Assembly (NCBI GenBank): GCA_905182545.1
Contig: CAJJBY010000009.1
Location: 84,149-148,148, forward strand
Origin: an uncultured Candidatus Puniceispirillum sp.
GTDB taxonomy: Bacteria; Pseudomonadota; Alphaproteobacteria; Puniceispirillales; Puniceispirillaceae
Direction: 5' to 3'
Length of the DNA: 64,000 bases
Shown here one piece after another: positions 53,859 to 64,000 of the stretch. The notes below the pieces were generated by a model that was given only the letters and a program-made list of their open reading frames with translations, searched no databases and was not told where the DNA came from. The first letter of the stretch is position 1; each line of letters starts with the position of its first letter. A program made the position numbers and the translations under genes.

Positions 53859-54153
53859 AAACCCAGTTTAGCAACTCTTGTTCTCATACCAACAAGATTT
53901 TAAAAAAACACAGCCAAGAAACGCATGACTCACCGCATGGCGCGCAAAATTTTGTCATGGGCATAAACCTTTTATAAACCCTTTTCTGTCATGGTTTGTT
54001 TCGGGGCTGGCGAGAAGCAGACCAAAGAAGTGGATTGCCCTTGCATCGAATGGCACTCTATGCGACACCGAGCTAGCAAAACGGTCTCATGTTTTTTGGG
54101 TTTTCACCGACCTGCCCTTTTGCGTCAATTCCACATTCGTGATGCTGGCATCA

Positions 54154-55068
54154 ATGTATATTTATTTACCTATTGCTGAAATTTCGATGCATATCGGCAT
54201 CATCATCGGCCTTGGCGGCGGTGTTGGTTTCCTATCGGGGCTTTTTGGCGTTGGTGGCGGCTTCTTAATGACGCCATTATTGATCTTTTTTGGCATTCCA
54301 CCAGCAGTTGCGGTTGCGACTGAGGCCAATCAGATCGTGGCATCATCAGTATCGGGCGGATTGGCGCATATGCGGCGCGGCAATGTCGATTTCAAAATGG
54401 GCGGTATTTTGCTGCTTGGTGGTGTCGTCGGATCATCCTTTGGCGTGATGCTGTTTGCCTCGCTTCGTGAAATGGGTCAGATTGATCTTGTGATCAAGCT
54501 GTCATATGTCGTGTTTCTTGGCATCATTGGGTTTTTGATGCTTTTGGAGAGTGTGCGAACCATTTTGCGCACGCGCCGCCCGGGCGGGCGCAAAACCAAA
54601 TTGCATCAGCATAATTGGCTTCACGGCTTACCGTTAAAGATGCGGTTCCGCCGATCAAAGCTATATATCAGCGCACTTTTGCCGCTTGCGATTGGCGCCT
54701 TTGTTGGTGTTTTGGCGGCGATCATGGGTGTCGGTGGCGGCTTTATCATGGTGCCAGCAATGATCTATCTTCTTGGCATGCCAACCTCGATTGTTGTTGG
54801 CACATCTTTGTTCCAGATTATTTTCGTGACAGCAAACGTCACTTTCCTGCAATCGGTACAAACCCAGACGGTTGATTTCATGCTTGCCGGTTTGCTGTTG
54901 TTTGGCGCAGTTATTGGCGCGCAGTTCGGCACAAGGGCAAGCGCATTATTGCGCGGCGAACAGCTTCGCGGGCTATTGGCGCTGATGGTGCTGGCGGTCT
55001 GTATCAAGCTTGGGTTTGATCTCGCCCTTCGGCCTGATCATTTGTTTAGCGTGGAACTGTTGAAATGA
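54154..55068 (+). CDS. TauE/SafE-family membrane exporter
   Basis: A protein of about 304 residues with roughly eight spans and the TauE/SafE pattern GLGGGVGFLSGLFGVGGGFLMTPLLIFFGIPPAVAVATEANQIVASSVSGG. The second half repeats it, FVGVLAAIMGVGGGFIMVPAMIYLLGMPTSIVVGTSLFQ. Such carriers export sulfite or similar anions, substrate unproven here. I choose ATG 54154 (MYIYLPIAEIS), which matches the family N-terminus; 54139 is the track start. It overlaps the next gene by 4 bases. The 295 bases before it (53859-54153) contain no recognised element. Confidence 0.88.
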   Translation: MYIYLPIAEISMHIGIIIGLGGGVGFLSGLFGVGGGFLMTPLLIFFGIPPAVAVATEANQIVASSVSGGLAHMRRGNVDFKMGGILLLGGVVGSSFGVMLFASLREMGQIDLVIKLSYVVFLGIIGFLMLLESVRTILRTRRPGGRKTKLHQHNWLHGLPLKMRFRRSKLYISALLPLAIGAFVGVLAAIMGVGGGFIMVPAMIYLLGMPTSIVVGTSLFQIIFVTANVTFLQSVQTQTVDFMLAGLLLFGAVIGAQFGTRASALLRGEQLRGLLALMVLAVCIKLGFDLALRPDHLFSVELLK

Positions 55069-55835
55069 TCCGCGCACGCCAACTTATTCTTGGCTTTATT
55101 CTGCTGCTTGGCATGACCAGTCTTGCCGCTGCAAATTCCGGCCGCTTGGTTGCTGATCTATCAAAATCAAATATCGCCATTACCAGTGGGTTCCACGGTA
55201 CCGATTTATTGTTATTCGGTGCGGTTGATGGCGCGGCTGGAGATGATATTCTGGTCGTGATTAGCGGCCCGCCAACCGATATCGCCCAGCGGCGAAAAGC
55301 AAACCGTGCTGGCATTTGGATTAATGTCGAAACCAATATTTGGCAAAAAGTACCAAGCCTTTACACCATTCTTGCCACCAGCCCGATCGACAAGATTGCC
55401 AGCCCCAAAACGCTTGCCTCGCTTGCGATTGGTACAAATAATATTGGGTTGGAAATCGCGGCCAAGACGCCCATTGCTGGCCAGTCGAAACCAACGGCAA
55501 ATGAATTTATTGCTGCGCTTCAGACCAATATGGCAAACATTGATCTATGGCCAGATCAAACTGGCAATGTCACCTTGACCGAAAACGCCCTGTTCCGCGC
55601 TGAGGTGAAATTGCCAGCAAATATTCTGTCTGGTACTTATGATGTTCGGGTTCTGCAATTCCGCAATGGTGTTGCAATCAGTGAGGACATTACCAATCTC
55701 TATATCAATAAAGGGGGGTTGAGTGCTGGCATTTACAATTTCGCACATAATTATTCAGCGTTGTATGGAATATTTGCAATCCTATTTGCGGTTGCTGCTG
55801 GTTGGTTGGCCGCAGCGGCATTCCGGCGCAGCTAA
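55065..55835 (+). CDS. TIGR02186-family periplasmic/membrane protein
   Basis: A 256-residue protein with an N-terminal signal sequence (LILGFILLLGMTSLAAA) and a C-terminal span (LYGIFAILFAVAAGWLAAAAF). The middle, with LFGAVDGAAGDDILVVISGPP and NRAGIWINVETN, matches the TIGR02186 group that is usually next to a TauE-type exporter. Function is unknown and may be to assist export. It overlaps TauE by 4 bases (ATGA). The Usp gene starts about 40 bases later. Confidence 0.82.
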   Translation: MIRARQLILGFILLLGMTSLAAANSGRLVADLSKSNIAITSGFHGTDLLLFGAVDGAAGDDILVVISGPPTDIAQRRKANRAGIWINVETNIWQKVPSLYTILATSPIDKIASPKTLASLAIGTNNIGLEIAAKTPIAGQSKPTANEFIAALQTNMANIDLWPDQTGNVTLTENALFRAEVKLPANILSGTYDVRVLQFRNGVAISEDITNLYINKGGLSAGIYNFAHNYSALYGIFAILFAVAAGWLAAAAFRRS

Positions 55836-55873
55836 GCCTTCATGCCCCCGATGATAGTGGAGATCTAGATATT

Positions 55874-56359
55874 ATGGCAAAAGCAACGGCGAAACCAAAA
55901 CAACCAGTCTTTCTTGTTGTTGTTGATGATAGCGAGGAAATGCATCAGGCATTGCAATTTGCTTGTGGACGCGCCCGATCTGTAGGTGGTCGTGTGGCAT
56001 TGATGTATTGCATTGTTCCTGCTGAATTCGAATATTGGGCCGGTGTCGGTGAATTAATGCGCGAAGAAGCGCGTGTAGAAGCCGAAGCCAAGATGGCCAT
56101 CCATGCCGATTATGCGAAAAAGCTGACCAACGGAACACCAATCCTCTATGTCCGCGAAGGTGATATCCGTGACGAATTGTTGGAATTGATTGATCAGGAA
56201 CATGAGATTAGCCTTCTTGTTCTTGGTGCCGATACGCAGTCGGAAACGGCTGGCCCTTTGATTACGTTCCTGATGGCAAACGGCGCATCTCGTTGCCGTG
56301 TTCCCATTACTGTTGTTCCCGGGAATCTGACAGACGAACAGCTTGACGCTCTGTTCTAG
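55874..56359 (+). CDS. Universal stress protein (UspA family)
   Basis: A Usp domain of about 161 residues with QPVFLVVVDDSEEMHQALQFACGRARSVGGRVALMYCIVP and the ATP-site-like region LLVLGADTQSETAGPLITFLMANGASRCRVPITVVPG. It probably binds nucleotides and aids survival under stress. I start at ATG 55874 (MAKATAKP), because the track start 55802 is in the previous gene. Third in the TauE-TIGR02186-Usp run. The cyclophilin gene follows after 30 bases. Confidence 0.88.
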   Translation: MAKATAKPKQPVFLVVVDDSEEMHQALQFACGRARSVGGRVALMYCIVPAEFEYWAGVGELMREEARVEAEAKMAIHADYAKKLTNGTPILYVREGDIRDELLELIDQEHEISLLVLGADTQSETAGPLITFLMANGASRCRVPITVVPGNLTDEQLDALF

Positions 56360-58773: not shown

Positions 58774-59883
58774 CTAAAGAAAAGGAAGCGGCACGATTCT
58801 GGCTGACCGCGGGCCATCATCCATATAGATTGTTACCGTTTGCCCCTTGTCAATCGGGGCGGTTGACACCATACCAACGCCAATATTTTCACCAACGCGC
58901 GGTGAGTAAACACAAGCACTAACATAGCCAGCATTTTCCCCGTCAAAGCTGACCAAAAGCCGGTCTTCATTTGTTGCGGCAAGGGTTGGACCATCAATGA
59001 TGAACCCCATGAACCTGCGGCTGATACCCACCTTTTTCATGGCGATCAGCGCATCCTTGCCAATAAAATCATGTGGCTGGTCGAGCGCGATGAATTTATC
59101 CATGCCAAGTTCAAATGGGTTGGTTCTGGAATCAGTATCAGCACCATAGGAAATCAGGCCACTTTCAATCCGTTCAATGTAATTTGGCGCACCCGGCCCA
59201 ATATTATAAGGCTTGCCAGCTTCGGCAACACGCGCCCACAAATCATCGCCGCGGTTAAAATCACGAAGATATAGCTCATAGCCGCCTTGCTTTGACCAGC
59301 CAGAGCGCGCCACAACCAGCGGAATGCCATCAAGTTCAGTGGCGCGAAATCCAAAATATTTCAATTCACGAACCCAATCACCGAACAAGTCAGACACGAC
59401 ATCAACTGCCTTTGGCCCTTGAATGCCAAGCGGCGAGACATCCGGCTCATAAACATCGACATCGAGCTTTAACGTGCCAGCAACAGCGCTTGCCCATAAT
59501 TGAATATCGCTATCGGCAATTGACAGCCAGATTTCATCTTCAGCCACTTGCATCAATACCGGATCATTGATGATTGCGCCGCTGTGATTGCAGATTGGTA
59601 CATATTTTCCCTGCCCAATGACCAAACCATCAAGATTGCGCGGGGTCAGCAACCGCGCCAATGCCAGCGCGTCCGGCCCTTTCAGCGCAACCTGCCGCTC
59701 AACCGCAACATCCCACATGGCGACATCACTGATCAGCCGGTGATATTCAGCCTCCGGATCGCCATAGCTTGTTGGCATATACATATGATTATAGACACTA
59801 GCCGCGGTCAGACCGGCCTTACAGCTCGCCTGAAAAAACGGGCTTTTGCGAACCCGCGCACCAATTGATAATTGTACCGCCAT
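58774..59883 (-). CDS. dmdA: GcvT-family protein resembling DMSP demethylase DmdA
   Basis: This 369-residue protein is of the GcvT/DmdA group, which moves a methyl or one-carbon unit to tetrahydrofolate. Features strongly like DmdA are TAASVYNHMYMPTSY, MWDVAVERQVALKGPDALALARLLTPRNL, then YEPDVSPLGIQGPKAVDVV and ARSGWSKQGGYELYLRDF, IERIESGLISYGADTD and IGVGMVS at the end. The length matches the Pelagibacter enzyme. In the sea DmdA removes the first methyl of DMSP. Paralogues that act on other substrates also exist, so the exact substrate is inferred. A decayed antiporter fragment lies downstream and threonine aldolase upstream on the same strand. Confidence 0.72.
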   Translation of the reverse strand: MAVQLSIGARVRKSPFFQASCKAGLTAASVYNHMYMPTSYGDPEAEYHRLISDVAMWDVAVERQVALKGPDALALARLLTPRNLDGLVIGQGKYVPICNHSGAIINDPVLMQVAEDEIWLSIADSDIQLWASAVAGTLKLDVDVYEPDVSPLGIQGPKAVDVVSDLFGDWVRELKYFGFRATELDGIPLVVARSGWSKQGGYELYLRDFNRGDDLWARVAEAGKPYNIGPGAPNYIERIESGLISYGADTDSRTNPFELGMDKFIALDQPHDFIGKDALIAMKKVGISRRFMGFIIDGPTLAATNEDRLLVSFDGENAGYVSACVYSPRVGENIGVGMVSTAPIDKGQTVTIYMDDGPRSARIVPLPFL

Positions 59884-60003: not shown

Positions 60004-61053
60004 CTATTGAAAAAAATTAGCAAGTTCAGCAGCAAATTGATCAGCCGCTTTCACATCAATATCAAGATGGGTAACAAGCCGGATCACGCGATCACCACCA
60101 CCAAGTAAAATGCCACGCGACGCTAAATGCGTCCGAAGCGGGTCTGCCGCCCCTTCGGGAACCGCCATAAACAACATATTTGTTTCAACCAGATCAGCAT
60201 CAACCGCGATTGGCCCAATTTCATTCAACTGATCGGCAAGTCGCCGCGCCATCGCATGATCATCGGCAAGCCGGTCAACATGGTGATTAAGCGCATAAAT
60301 ACCAGCCGCCGCTAGAATACCAACCTGACGCATGCCACCGCCAACCAATTTGCGCATCCGGCGCGCCCGTGCAATAAAATCATGAGAGCCAACAAGAACC
60401 GATCCCGCCGGTGTGCCAAGCCCCTTTGAGAGGCATAGGGACACACTATCAACCGGATCAACAATCTGCTTGGCAGGCACACCAAGCTTGACCGCCGCAT
60501 TCATCAACCTTGCCCCATCAAGGTGCACGCCAAGCCCACTATCTTTTCCAGCTTTGGCAAGACTCGCAATAACCTCCACATCATGGACATGACCAGATAT
60601 GGTATTTTCAAGACATAGCAAACGGCTAATCGGGCAATGCGGATCGTCCGGCTTGACGGCCTTGGTGATTTGCGATGGTGTCATCAAACCACGATGGTCG
60701 GTTCCAATCGCCTCCATCATCACGCCGCCAAGAACCGAAACACCGCCAGCCTCATAGCGATGAACATGATAGCAATCACCGACCAGCAATTCATCACCGC
60801 GTTGGCAATGTGATAATAGCGCGACAAGATTAGACTGGGTACCACTCGCAACAAATAGACCAGCCTGTTTGCCAAGAAGCGTAGCAACCCTGTCCTGAAG
60901 TTCATTGACCGTGGGGTCATCCCCATAAACATCATCACCCACATCGGCTGTTGCCATGGCTTGGCGCATTGCCGCTGTTGGTTTTGTTACAGTGTCGCTT
61001 CTAAGATCGATAAGCGCCGGTTTATTATGCAAGGCCGCGTCGTGATAATTCAT
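60004..61053 (-). CDS. ltaE: Low-specificity L-threonine aldolase
   Basis: This PLP enzyme splits threonine or allo-threonine to glycine and acetaldehyde. The sequence LIDLRSDTVTKPTAAMRQAMATADVGDDVYGDDPTVNEL is typical, as are ASGTQSNLVALLSHC and HLDGARLMNAAVKLG. The PLP Lys is about 210 in SVSLCLSKGLGTPAGSVLVG. The 349-residue length is normal. The start overlaps the reductase stop by 4 bases. The DmdA-like gene follows 120 bases downstream, which may give a one-carbon or glycine link. Confidence 0.94.
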   Translation of the reverse strand: MNYHDAALHNKPALIDLRSDTVTKPTAAMRQAMATADVGDDVYGDDPTVNELQDRVATLLGKQAGLFVASGTQSNLVALLSHCQRGDELLVGDCYHVHRYEAGGVSVLGGVMMEAIGTDHRGLMTPSQITKAVKPDDPHCPISRLLCLENTISGHVHDVEVIASLAKAGKDSGLGVHLDGARLMNAAVKLGVPAKQIVDPVDSVSLCLSKGLGTPAGSVLVGSHDFIARARRMRKLVGGGMRQVGILAAAGIYALNHHVDRLADDHAMARRLADQLNEIGPIAVDADLVETNMLFMAVPEGAADPLRTHLASRGILLGGGDRVIRLVTHLDIDVKAADQFAAELANFFQ

Positions 61054-62286
61054 TTTTTATTACCTGCCGCAATAAAGGCCTTGAGATCAAAATCGCAATT
61101 GCCAATATCGTCAGGATCAGGCGACAGCGCAAGATCAAGGCATTTCTTGCCAAGCATATAGCCTGCCGGGTCACGAACAGCCTCAACCGCGGCCAATTGC
61201 CCTTTATCACCATAGCTCCAGACGGAAAAACCACCTTCGCGTTTCCCCGGCCGCATCTGATGGCGCAGATCGGGCGATGCCAGCGGCACAATACCTGCCG
61301 ATTGTAGGCGAACATCAAATTGTTCTGACCAGAACCACGGCGCTGCAATTGCTGGTTGGGCAAGGCCGCAAATTGCAGCCGCAGCCCGTACCGCGGTCAT
61401 TTGAGCATTATCAACCGATTCGATACGCAAAGCCGAACCATCAATCAGCGCCACATCACCAATCGCAAAAATATCCTGAACCGAGCTTTGCATCATTGCA
61501 TCAACCAGAATGCCATTGCCCGTCATAATTCCCCGCTGACTCTGCCAGATCCAGATCAGGTAGAACGCCAATACCGACAAGCAATAATTCAGCCACAATT
61601 TGGCTGCCATCATCAAGCTGCACACCGATAAAGGCACCGTCTTTTTGCAAAATTTCCTGACAATTTGCACCAATATGCAGCCCAACATCATGACTTTGAT
61701 GCAATTCGGCAAAAAACGCCGAAATCTGCGGGCTTGCCACCCGCGCTAACAGCCGGTCAGCCATTTCAATCACATCAACGCGAAGTCCAAGCTTGGTCAA
61801 GCTTGCCGCAACTTCCAGTCCGATATAACCGCCGCCAATCACCACAGCATGCTGGCGACCCGAAACCGCCTCGCGCAAAGCATGTGCATCATCAGGATGG
61901 CGAAGCACAAACACCCCATCAAGACTAGCCGCCGCCGCAAGCTGTCGCGGCACCGCGCCAGTTGCAAGCACCAGCTTGTCATAGCAATGCTGACTGCCAT
62001 CATCGAGATTTAGTTTTTTTTGCAGCGGATCAATCGACAACGCATCCCGCCCATCAAGCAACTCAATATCATGTGCGGCAAACCAATCGGGTCGCCGTAA
62101 AAGAAATTTGGCATCATCATGACCATCCGCCTGCAAAAAAGCCTTTGATAATGGCGGGCGTTCAAGCGGCGCACCAACCAGCCGGTCTATGATGCAGATT
62201 CGGCCAGCATAACCATTTGCCCGCAATTGTTCAGCGCAGGAAATCCCTGCATGACTGGCACCAACAATATTGATTTGATCTGCCAT
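61050..62286 (-). CDS. FAD-dependent ferredoxin/rubredoxin-type reductase, interrupted by a one-base frameshift
   Basis: An NAD(P)H-dependent flavoprotein reductase. The N-terminal ORF has QINIVGASHAGISCAEQLR (FAD GxGxxG-like), APLERPPLSKAFL, and the NAD site VVIGGGYIGLEVAASLTKLG. The second ORF resumes as GIMTGNGILVDAMMQSSVQDIFAIGDVALI and continues to the C-terminus. Removing one base of CCCC at 61531-61534 joins SAG-IMTG. About 412 residues. It lacks its own electron-carrier gene nearby and overlaps ltaE by 4 bases. A role with DMSP or amino-acid oxygenases is possible but unproven. Confidence 0.88.
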
Positions 62287-62312: not shown

Positions 62313-63057
62313 TTAGCGCAAAGACCGCTGCGCCATTAAGGCAGGCAATTGGTTAATCCTGCCAATAACATTCTCGTGATGAATATCTTGATGTGGGCGG
62401 TTGTCAACGCTGTCGGCAACACAGATGAAATCACCTGCCTTTGCCGCAATGGCCGCGCCATAATCAGCCATCGTATCACCGACCATAATGCTTGCCGCTG
62501 GCGTCACACCGGCAATCTGACAACAATGCAAAAATCCGTGCGGCTCAGGTTTTGACCCAAAGCCACTATCCGCACCAACTACTGTACAAAATAAATCCAG
62601 AACGCCAATATCCTGCATGCTTCTTTTGGCGCTGCTTTCGCTGTCGTTGGTCAGAATCGCAAGCCGATAGCCAACCTTGTGAAGCTGGCGAAGTGGCGCT
62701 TCAACCTCGCCTTTTGGCACGGTTTGATTGCGCCCATGCCGATCGACCAATATCTGCACATCCTGTTGATAGCGATCATCTTGATCAAGCTTGATCATAT
62801 GGCTTGGCAGCATTTTCTGCCAACAGCTGCGAATATCAGCAAAAGAACCCGCGGCAAAAATACCGCGTGAGTCAATTTGGCCGGCAGCTTCATCAACGCC
62901 AATTGCCGACAGCAATTCATCACCCGCCAATATCGCCATCCCAATCATCGGGAATACGGCTTGCTGTATAATGCGCCACAGCCCGCGCAACCGGCAGCCA
63001 TGTCGCCTCCAGATCAAGGATCACCCCATCTTTATCAAACACGATTAAATCAGTCAT
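62313..63057 (-). CDS. HAD-family phosphatase, interrupted by a one-base frameshift
   Basis: A phosphoglycolate-phosphatase-like HAD hydrolase. The true N-terminus, not in the ORF track, reads MTDLIVFDKDGVILDLEATW and continues LPVARAVAHYTASRIPDDW, holding the nucleophile Asp in FDKDGV. After the frame change it continues as MAILAGDELLSAIGVDEAAG. The rest has AILTNDSESSAK and the motif IV MVGDTMADYGAAIAAKAG. Removing one base from CCC at 62940-62942 joins the parts. About 247 residues. It is 26 bases upstream of the reductase. Substrate unknown. Confidence 0.85.
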
Positions 63058-63183: not shown

Positions 63184-63999
63184 TCATTCACTGGCAATAA
63201 TAAAGCTTCGCCCTGCAAGCCGCGCATAGGCGGTCATGATCTGCCCATCATCACACATCTGACGAGCAAGGCAAGCGCCAGCGGCAAGCGCATGATCAAT
63301 TTCACCTGCGCTCAAAGGGCCAACATCAACGGTAATAAGCTGGTCTTTTAAATCACTATCGGGCACAAGGCTGGCCGCAGGCTGGCGTGTAATTGCCGGT
63401 GACGATATGGTGATCGCATTGGCAATCAAACTGGCGGCAACATCAGCAGCAGCCGCATTTTGCGCCAACACCGTAACGGAATCTGCAATCCCAAGTGATA
63501 GGCTTCGCCCCCGCCAACCGCTTGTCGCAATACCGCCAATGCGATCATGATCATGCAGCCTGATCCGGCCATGAAGGGGCATGCGCCCGCCATCACCACC
63601 CGAAGCCGCCATTGCTAAATCGCTAAGATGCGTGTCACGGTCATCGGCAATGCCTATATCGAAAAAGGCCTCCTCGCCAAGATATAGCGCGATATCGCCG
63701 CCATTATTGACCGAAGCCCGATAGAGCTGATCGCCCATTGCCAGCAAAATTTCATCGGCAACGCTTCCCGCCACGGCAATCATTGGGGTGATGAAATCAG
63801 CCTTGTCATGGCGCGGCAAATGCGGGTTGATCGCCACCACCATGCGTTTGGCAACTGGCCCTTTTAGGCTGTTGATAATGGTGGGGTCGGCTGGCAATCG
63901 CAGCATCGTCAATTCATCGACCAACAGATCAAGAAGGCCGCAAAACGCATCTGCTGCGCGGGCATAGGCGGCGGCGACTTCGGCTTTGTCGCCTTCAGC
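63184..63999 (-). CDS. UPF0280 family protein (5' end beyond the right window edge)
   Basis: The ORF is open to the window edge, so the start is outside. Readable protein includes AYARAADAFCGLLDLLVDELTML before the track start. The main part, FITPMIAVAGSVADEILLAM, ASVNNGGDIALYLGEEAFFDIGI and GGIATSGWRGRSLSLGIADSVTVLA, then DVAASLIANAI, is a good match to UPF0280, a family distantly related to ApbE flavin transferases. Function unknown. It lies upstream of the HAD gene on the same strand, separated by 126 bases. No frame break is visible. Confidence 0.85.
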   Translation of the reverse strand, partial: AEGDKAEVAAAYARAADAFCGLLDLLVDELTMLRLPADPTIINSLKGPVAKRMVVAINPHLPRHDKADFITPMIAVAGSVADEILLAMGDQLYRASVNNGGDIALYLGEEAFFDIGIADDRDTHLSDLAMAASGGDGGRMPLHGRIRLHDHDRIGGIATSGWRGRSLSLGIADSVTVLAQNAAAADVAASLIANAITISSPAITRQPAASLVPDSDLKDQLITVDVGPLSAGEIDHALAAGACLARQMCDDGQIMTAYARLAGRSFIIASE

Positions 64000-64000
64000 A

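Follow-up and report, generated by a model that had tools for sequence, protein, structure and literature searches.

Demethylation of dimethylsulfoniopropionate (DMSP) decides whether algal sulfur is kept in microbes or is able to leave as dimethyl sulfide. DmdA, the tetrahydrofolate (THF)-dependent enzyme of this step, has homologues outside the DmdA clade, which Hernandez et al. 2020 (PMC7487153) call 'non-DmdA' by phylogeny and modelling. SAR92 DmdAs peripheral to clades A–E were functional by complementation (PMC10746254). Published distributions of dmdA within SAR116 differ, from subclade LGC2 only (PMC8547437) to nearly the whole clade (PMC12262181), and no DMSP demethylation genes were reported in OM252, which includes HIMB30 (PMC8269220). 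Here we analyse a DmdA-like gene in a 64,000-nucleotide stretch (the window) that forms the end of contig 9 of a SAR116 (Puniceispirillum-type) genome, G000 (2.0 Mb, 98% complete). The gene belongs to a group of proteins, here termed clade W, which, judged from sequence and gene order, is most likely an unrecognised clade of demethylases for DMSP or a close sulfonium compound.

The window gene (Table 1) is an intact open reading frame with an ATG start. The GcvT-fold protein it encodes carries both PF01571 and PF08669, the full-length two-domain architecture of DmdA. Its best match in the PDB (phmmer) is 3TFH, P. ubique DmdA (E=9e-86, 39% identity over the full length); the next entry is a GcvT (E=3e-36). 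The NCBIfam model for DMSP demethylase, NF009133, matches with E=2e-117 and 392 bits. An AlphaFold2 model built from 38 aligned sequences (pLDDT 93) predicts a fold for which Foldseek ranks 3tfh first (TM 0.95/0.94), GcvTs reaching at most 0.88. The sequence-only reading had labelled the gene DMSP demethylase-like on four stretches (VYNHM, WDVAVERQV, EPDVSPLGIQGPKA and ARSGWSKQGG); all four are present in the translation and the label was apt. Against four relatives the dN/dS of the gene is 0.09-0.16, which indicates purifying selection.

The substrate/folate loop is conserved. W196, K198, Q199, E203 and Y205 are all kept in the window protein, and with them the SKQ motif. W196 corresponds to P. 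ubique W197, E203 to E204 and Y205, just past the motif, to Y206; the roles of these three residues (3TFH numbering) are those given in PMC7487153, whose numbering was matched to 3TFH by a constant offset of 26. Of 83 W proteins, 82 carry SGWSKQGG[YF]E (A replacing the first G in two of these), canonical DmdA rows mostly read SG[WY]SKQ at the loop, and 58 of the 88 columns fixed in canonical DmdA are also kept in W. A GcvT-type aminomethyltransferase, or a different folate enzyme without demethylase activity on sulfonium compounds, would share the superfamily and both domains and would be in keeping with a DmdA score below the model's cut-off. Such an identity would nevertheless be surprising. 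The GcvT models TIGR00528 (136.9 bits, cut-off 235.85) and NF001567 (164.6 bits, cut-off 300) both fall short of their thresholds and far below the DmdA model, the SKQ motif replaces the GcvT-type loop, and the closest structure is DmdA. In addition, HIMB30 has a true gcvT adjoining W, and G000 encodes more distant members of the GcvT family at other places. On scores, motif and structure together a plain GcvT is rejected.

NF009133 identifies three DmdA-family genes in the genome, at 569.7 bits (contig 10, C10:54619-55722), 392 bits (window) and 377 bits (contig 1). In a maximum-likelihood tree of 103 rows, in which P. ubique is the only proven DmdA and R. pomeroyi is represented by roseobacter-type rows, the window gene falls in clade W (46 rows, support 100/99) and the contig-1 copy in clade T (17 rows, 100/100). 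Neither clade contains P. ubique DmdA (on a long branch, its exact place unsure), the roseobacter-type rows, the SAR116 contig-10 type or the five gammaproteobacterial DmdAs. The W-type motif is found in none of 28 rows of the contig-1 (T) type; those seen have TGWSSE. That the window gene is itself canonical DmdA, orthologous to the P. ubique and R. pomeroyi enzymes, could be argued from the shared motifs and the 39% identity but is extremely improbable: the contig-10 gene is the canonical DmdA of this genome, and neither score nor tree places the window gene with it. The contig-10 gene and the tree refute that identity. A tree constrained to hold the window gene by itself among canonical DmdAs is 121 log units worse (approximately unbiased test, p-AU 3e-6), which is weak evidence because the constraint also parts the gene from the rest of clade W; the test does not reject a tree with the whole of W next to canonical DmdA (p-AU 0.18). 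The sequence-only reading thus stands in part: under the refuting condition it had set, placement in a non-DmdA clade, the gene lies outside the branches of P. ubique and roseobacter-type DmdA, while the motif and context of its clade point back to DMSP demethylation.

Gene context is the most informative evidence on the function of W. Clade W genes recur in three arrangements: (i) a row of acuI, W, O-acetylhomoserine sulfhydrylase, alpha/beta hydrolase, a HAD/enoyl-CoA hydratase (ECH) gene and a dmdB-type acyl-CoA ligase (L037, L045, L050, L052, L060, L250, L254), carried by one alphaproteobacterial group and by two single-contig, complete genomes of another SAR116-order family (L250 and L254, the hydrolase of L254 not being called); (ii) a row of W, sulfhydrylase, hydrolase and HAD/ECH in Rhizobiaceae-type genomes; (iii) a row of methylenetetrahydrofolate reductase (MTHFR), W and dmdB-type ligase beside glyA and gcvTHP in HIMB30 (L031), Litoricola (L033), L205 and L048. 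Here 'dmdB-type' denotes NF006020/PRK08162 acyl-CoA synthetases, putatively methylmercaptopropionate (MMPA)-CoA ligases. These neighbours match the fates of what DmdA produces: MTHFR would take up methyl-THF, and MMPA would pass through ligase, hydratase and methanethiol capture (PMC5395565). A dmdB-type ligase lies near W at 10 of 79 W loci, and with a background of two such genes per 2.0 Mb in G000 chance linkage is unlikely. HIMB30 has W and no other DmdA-family copy. In a SAR116 genome assembled as one contig (G599, 2.3 Mb, 99% complete) W is the sole DmdA relative (E up to 1e-90) and lies within a full cluster. The sulfhydrylase-hydrolase-HAD/ECH run also follows gammaproteobacterial DmdAs that score above the cut-off (L192-L194). 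One of these gammaproteobacteria (L192, G176 C48) carries a tandem pair of DmdA genes (476 and 448 bits) ahead of the row.

We propose that a clade W enzyme would, like DmdA, transfer a single S-methyl group to THF from DMSP or a closely related dimethylsulfonio compound, yielding MMPA and 5-methyl-THF. For the window gene we hold with moderate confidence that it encodes a THF-dependent demethylase of this DmdA-like clade, apart from canonical DmdA, with DMSP or a close dimethylsulfonio compound as substrate. In no alignment column do the W proteins of its SAR116 family (f1) have a fixed residue that differs from one fixed in cluster-borne W, and with the purifying selection this makes retention of function in a different neighbourhood the simplest reading. 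The substrate of the window copy itself is less certain, because its neighbours are a threonine aldolase and a ferredoxin reductase.

In G000 the W enzyme would act beside the canonical DmdA of contig 10 and a dmdB-type ligase and ECH of contig 1. Two dmdB-type ligases are encoded outside the window; the contig-1 ligase directly follows the ECH gene and is 68.5% identical to the ligase of clade T clusters. The sequence-only reading had proposed DMSP as a carbon and sulfur source and a search for dmdB, dmdC and dmdD beyond the locus. The window gene does not establish such use; canonical DmdA, an AcuI-like reductase and the ECH-ligase pair are encoded elsewhere in the genome, and a genome-wide search for the DmdC-type domain PF12806 gave no match. 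The canonical gene (L009:9617-10732) does not lie in a classic dmd cluster either: it is preceded by a thiamine-pyrophosphate enzyme and a short protein that by eye resembles hydroxyisourate hydrolase, an arrangement conserved in SAR116. The contig-1 copy (L010:9252-10409, C1:178299-179372) is the sub-cutoff clade T gene with motif TGWSSE, and gammaproteobacterial clade T genes lie in a row of T, CoA-binding protein, ECH and dmdB-type ligase.

Table 1 Features of the window around the clade W gene
Feature	Position	Strand	Remarks
DmdA-like (clade W) candidate THF-dependent demethylase, 369 aa	58774..59883	minus	GCV_T + GCV_T_C domains
Codons of S194-E203, SGWSKQGGYE	59275..59304	minus	identical to P. 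ubique DmdA
Low-specificity threonine aldolase	60004..61053	minus	NF007825 381.5 bits, cut-off 312
FAD ferredoxin-reductase-type gene (HcaD/AndAa-like)	61050..62286	minus	frameshift near 61530; ~411 aa in relatives
HAD-family hydrolase (phosphatase-type)	62313..~63056	minus	frameshift near 62922; ~290 aa in relatives
UPF0280/PRK04334-type protein	63184..64000	minus	cut by contig end

The surroundings of the window gene are of another kind. The threonine aldolase, FAD reductase and HAD phosphatase noted upstream in the sequence-only reading are all present on the same strand, and dmdB and dmdC are indeed not adjacent; none of acuI, dmdB, dmdC, dmdD/acuH or metF adjoins the gene, and the DMSP-type neighbours are those of W orthologues in HIMB30-type gammaproteobacteria and in other SAR116-order families. 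The 'one-carbon setting' fits loosely, as threonine aldolase touches glycine and C1 metabolism and the other neighbours do not. That reading had missed the frameshifts of the FAD reductase and HAD genes, each of which has a single additional base in this assembly when compared with its relatives. Since the neighbours of the contig-1 paralogue are likewise fragmented, these are likely indel errors of the draft. Threonine aldolase is conserved beside W where a SAR116 locus extends that far (20 loci, all SAR116-type). Further off, at positions 54139-56359, a TauE/SafE sulfite-exporter-family gene is accompanied by genes for an Alph_Pro_TM and a Usp protein; many SAR116 genomes conserve this row close to W.

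This relocation allows another reading, the main alternative, in which THF-dependent demethylation by the W of this SAR116 family acts on some other methylated compound (betaine, another sulfonium, an N-methyl heterocycle) and the shift in neighbourhood reflects a shift in substrate. We consider it unlikely. It would account for the conserved reductase-threonine aldolase-W row of family f1, which takes the place of DMSP-type neighbours, and it agrees with the presence of a canonical DmdA for DMSP. Puniceispirillum-type genomes add to this row the HAD and UPF0280 genes, a xanthine-dehydrogenase-type Mo subunit and a protein that by eye resembles 6-hydroxynicotinate reductase but matches no family model, the last two following UPF0280 in relatives. 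Yet no alignment column separates relocated from cluster-borne W, and HIMB30-type genes, which branch inside the f1 group (a weak join, 80/28), sit with MTHFR and a dmdB-type ligase. A promoter and terminator scan did not establish co-transcription of the window row. In a more specific and improbable version, W would have left an ancestral DMSP cluster in the Puniceispirillum family and been recruited as THF-dependent demethylase of another methylated osmolyte; an N-methyl heterocycle would be one example, with the linked Mo-hydroxylase and 6-hydroxynicotinate-reductase-like genes serving its turnover. At L251:11042-14001 the UPF0280, reductase-like and Mo-subunit genes lie upstream of HAD, FAD reductase, threonine aldolase and W, and a heterocycle pathway is possible for that row; a limited search of the open-licence literature found no homarine or other heterocycle pathway matching the UPF0280 and Mo-hydroxylase neighbours.

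Several points weigh against a DMSP demethylase in the window. The protein scores below the 410-bit cut-off of NF009133; W joins T rather than canonical DmdA (83/99); no part in DMSP metabolism is known for the f1 neighbours (threonine aldolase, ferredoxin reductase, HAD, UPF0280); the genome lacks a detectable PF12806 domain; a canonical DmdA is already present, so that function may be divided between the two; PMC7487153 labels homologues outside its DmdA clade 'non-DmdA', and these may include W; and the open-licence literature searched yielded no biochemical characterisation of clade W. Off-clade placement does not make the gene a non-demethylase. We also tried the low score as a sign of a non-demethylase and dropped it, as W occurs in DMSP-type clusters elsewhere and complementation has succeeded at similar divergence (PMC10746254).

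Clade W is missed by the usual hidden Markov model cut-off. Across 44 genomes reached through relatives, NF009133 scores form a high group (mostly 498-700 bits) and a low group (~330-424) with a few between. Among 72 SAR116-order genomes, 67 carry a DmdA relative and 30 a copy above the cut-off (mostly 492-634 bits); 37 of the 67 have sub-cutoff copies only. The disagreement over SAR116 and the reported absence from OM252 could therefore stem from thresholds, and HIMB30, in contrast to PMC8269220, carries the MTHFR-W-ligase row. Activity of W would mean that SAR116 and OM252-type groups have more demethylation potential than has been estimated; inactivity would mean that broad 'dmdA' counts are inflated. 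A limited search of the open-licence literature found no description of clade W in these clusters. SAR116-order family f3 (L247:5858-6976, L248, L249, L252) has a further sub-cutoff DmdA-like type, by best match neither W nor T and about 34-37% identical to contig-10 DmdA; it mostly adjoins a ~300-residue protein with 'AETSPPDS' that by eye may be MTHFR-like.

Set beside known systems, the window protein shares with GcvT, the glycine cleavage T-protein, its superfamily and THF-binding fold, and differs in identity (~25%), in loop motif and in that no H-protein gene adjoins it. The 'non-DmdA' homologues of PMC7487153 resemble it in DmdA-like structure and, in some off-DmdA clades, in the key tryptophan (W171, taken as W197 in 3TFH numbering); they were classed there from phylogeny and modelling, whereas W is read here also from gene neighbourhoods. 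SAR92 DmdA, which falls outside the classic clades and is 35-39% identical to the P. ubique enzyme, is active (PMC10746254), and a low score therefore does not exclude function; its gene order and identity range appear to fit clade T best. From P. ubique DmdA (PDB 3TFH/3TFI/3TFJ) the window protein is set apart by 39% identity, a sub-cutoff score, another clade and a locus where no DMSP-pathway neighbours were found. The two proteins have in common the GCV_T + GCV_T_C architecture, the predicted fold (TM 0.95), the loop motif SGWSKQGGYE and the equivalents of E204 and Y206.
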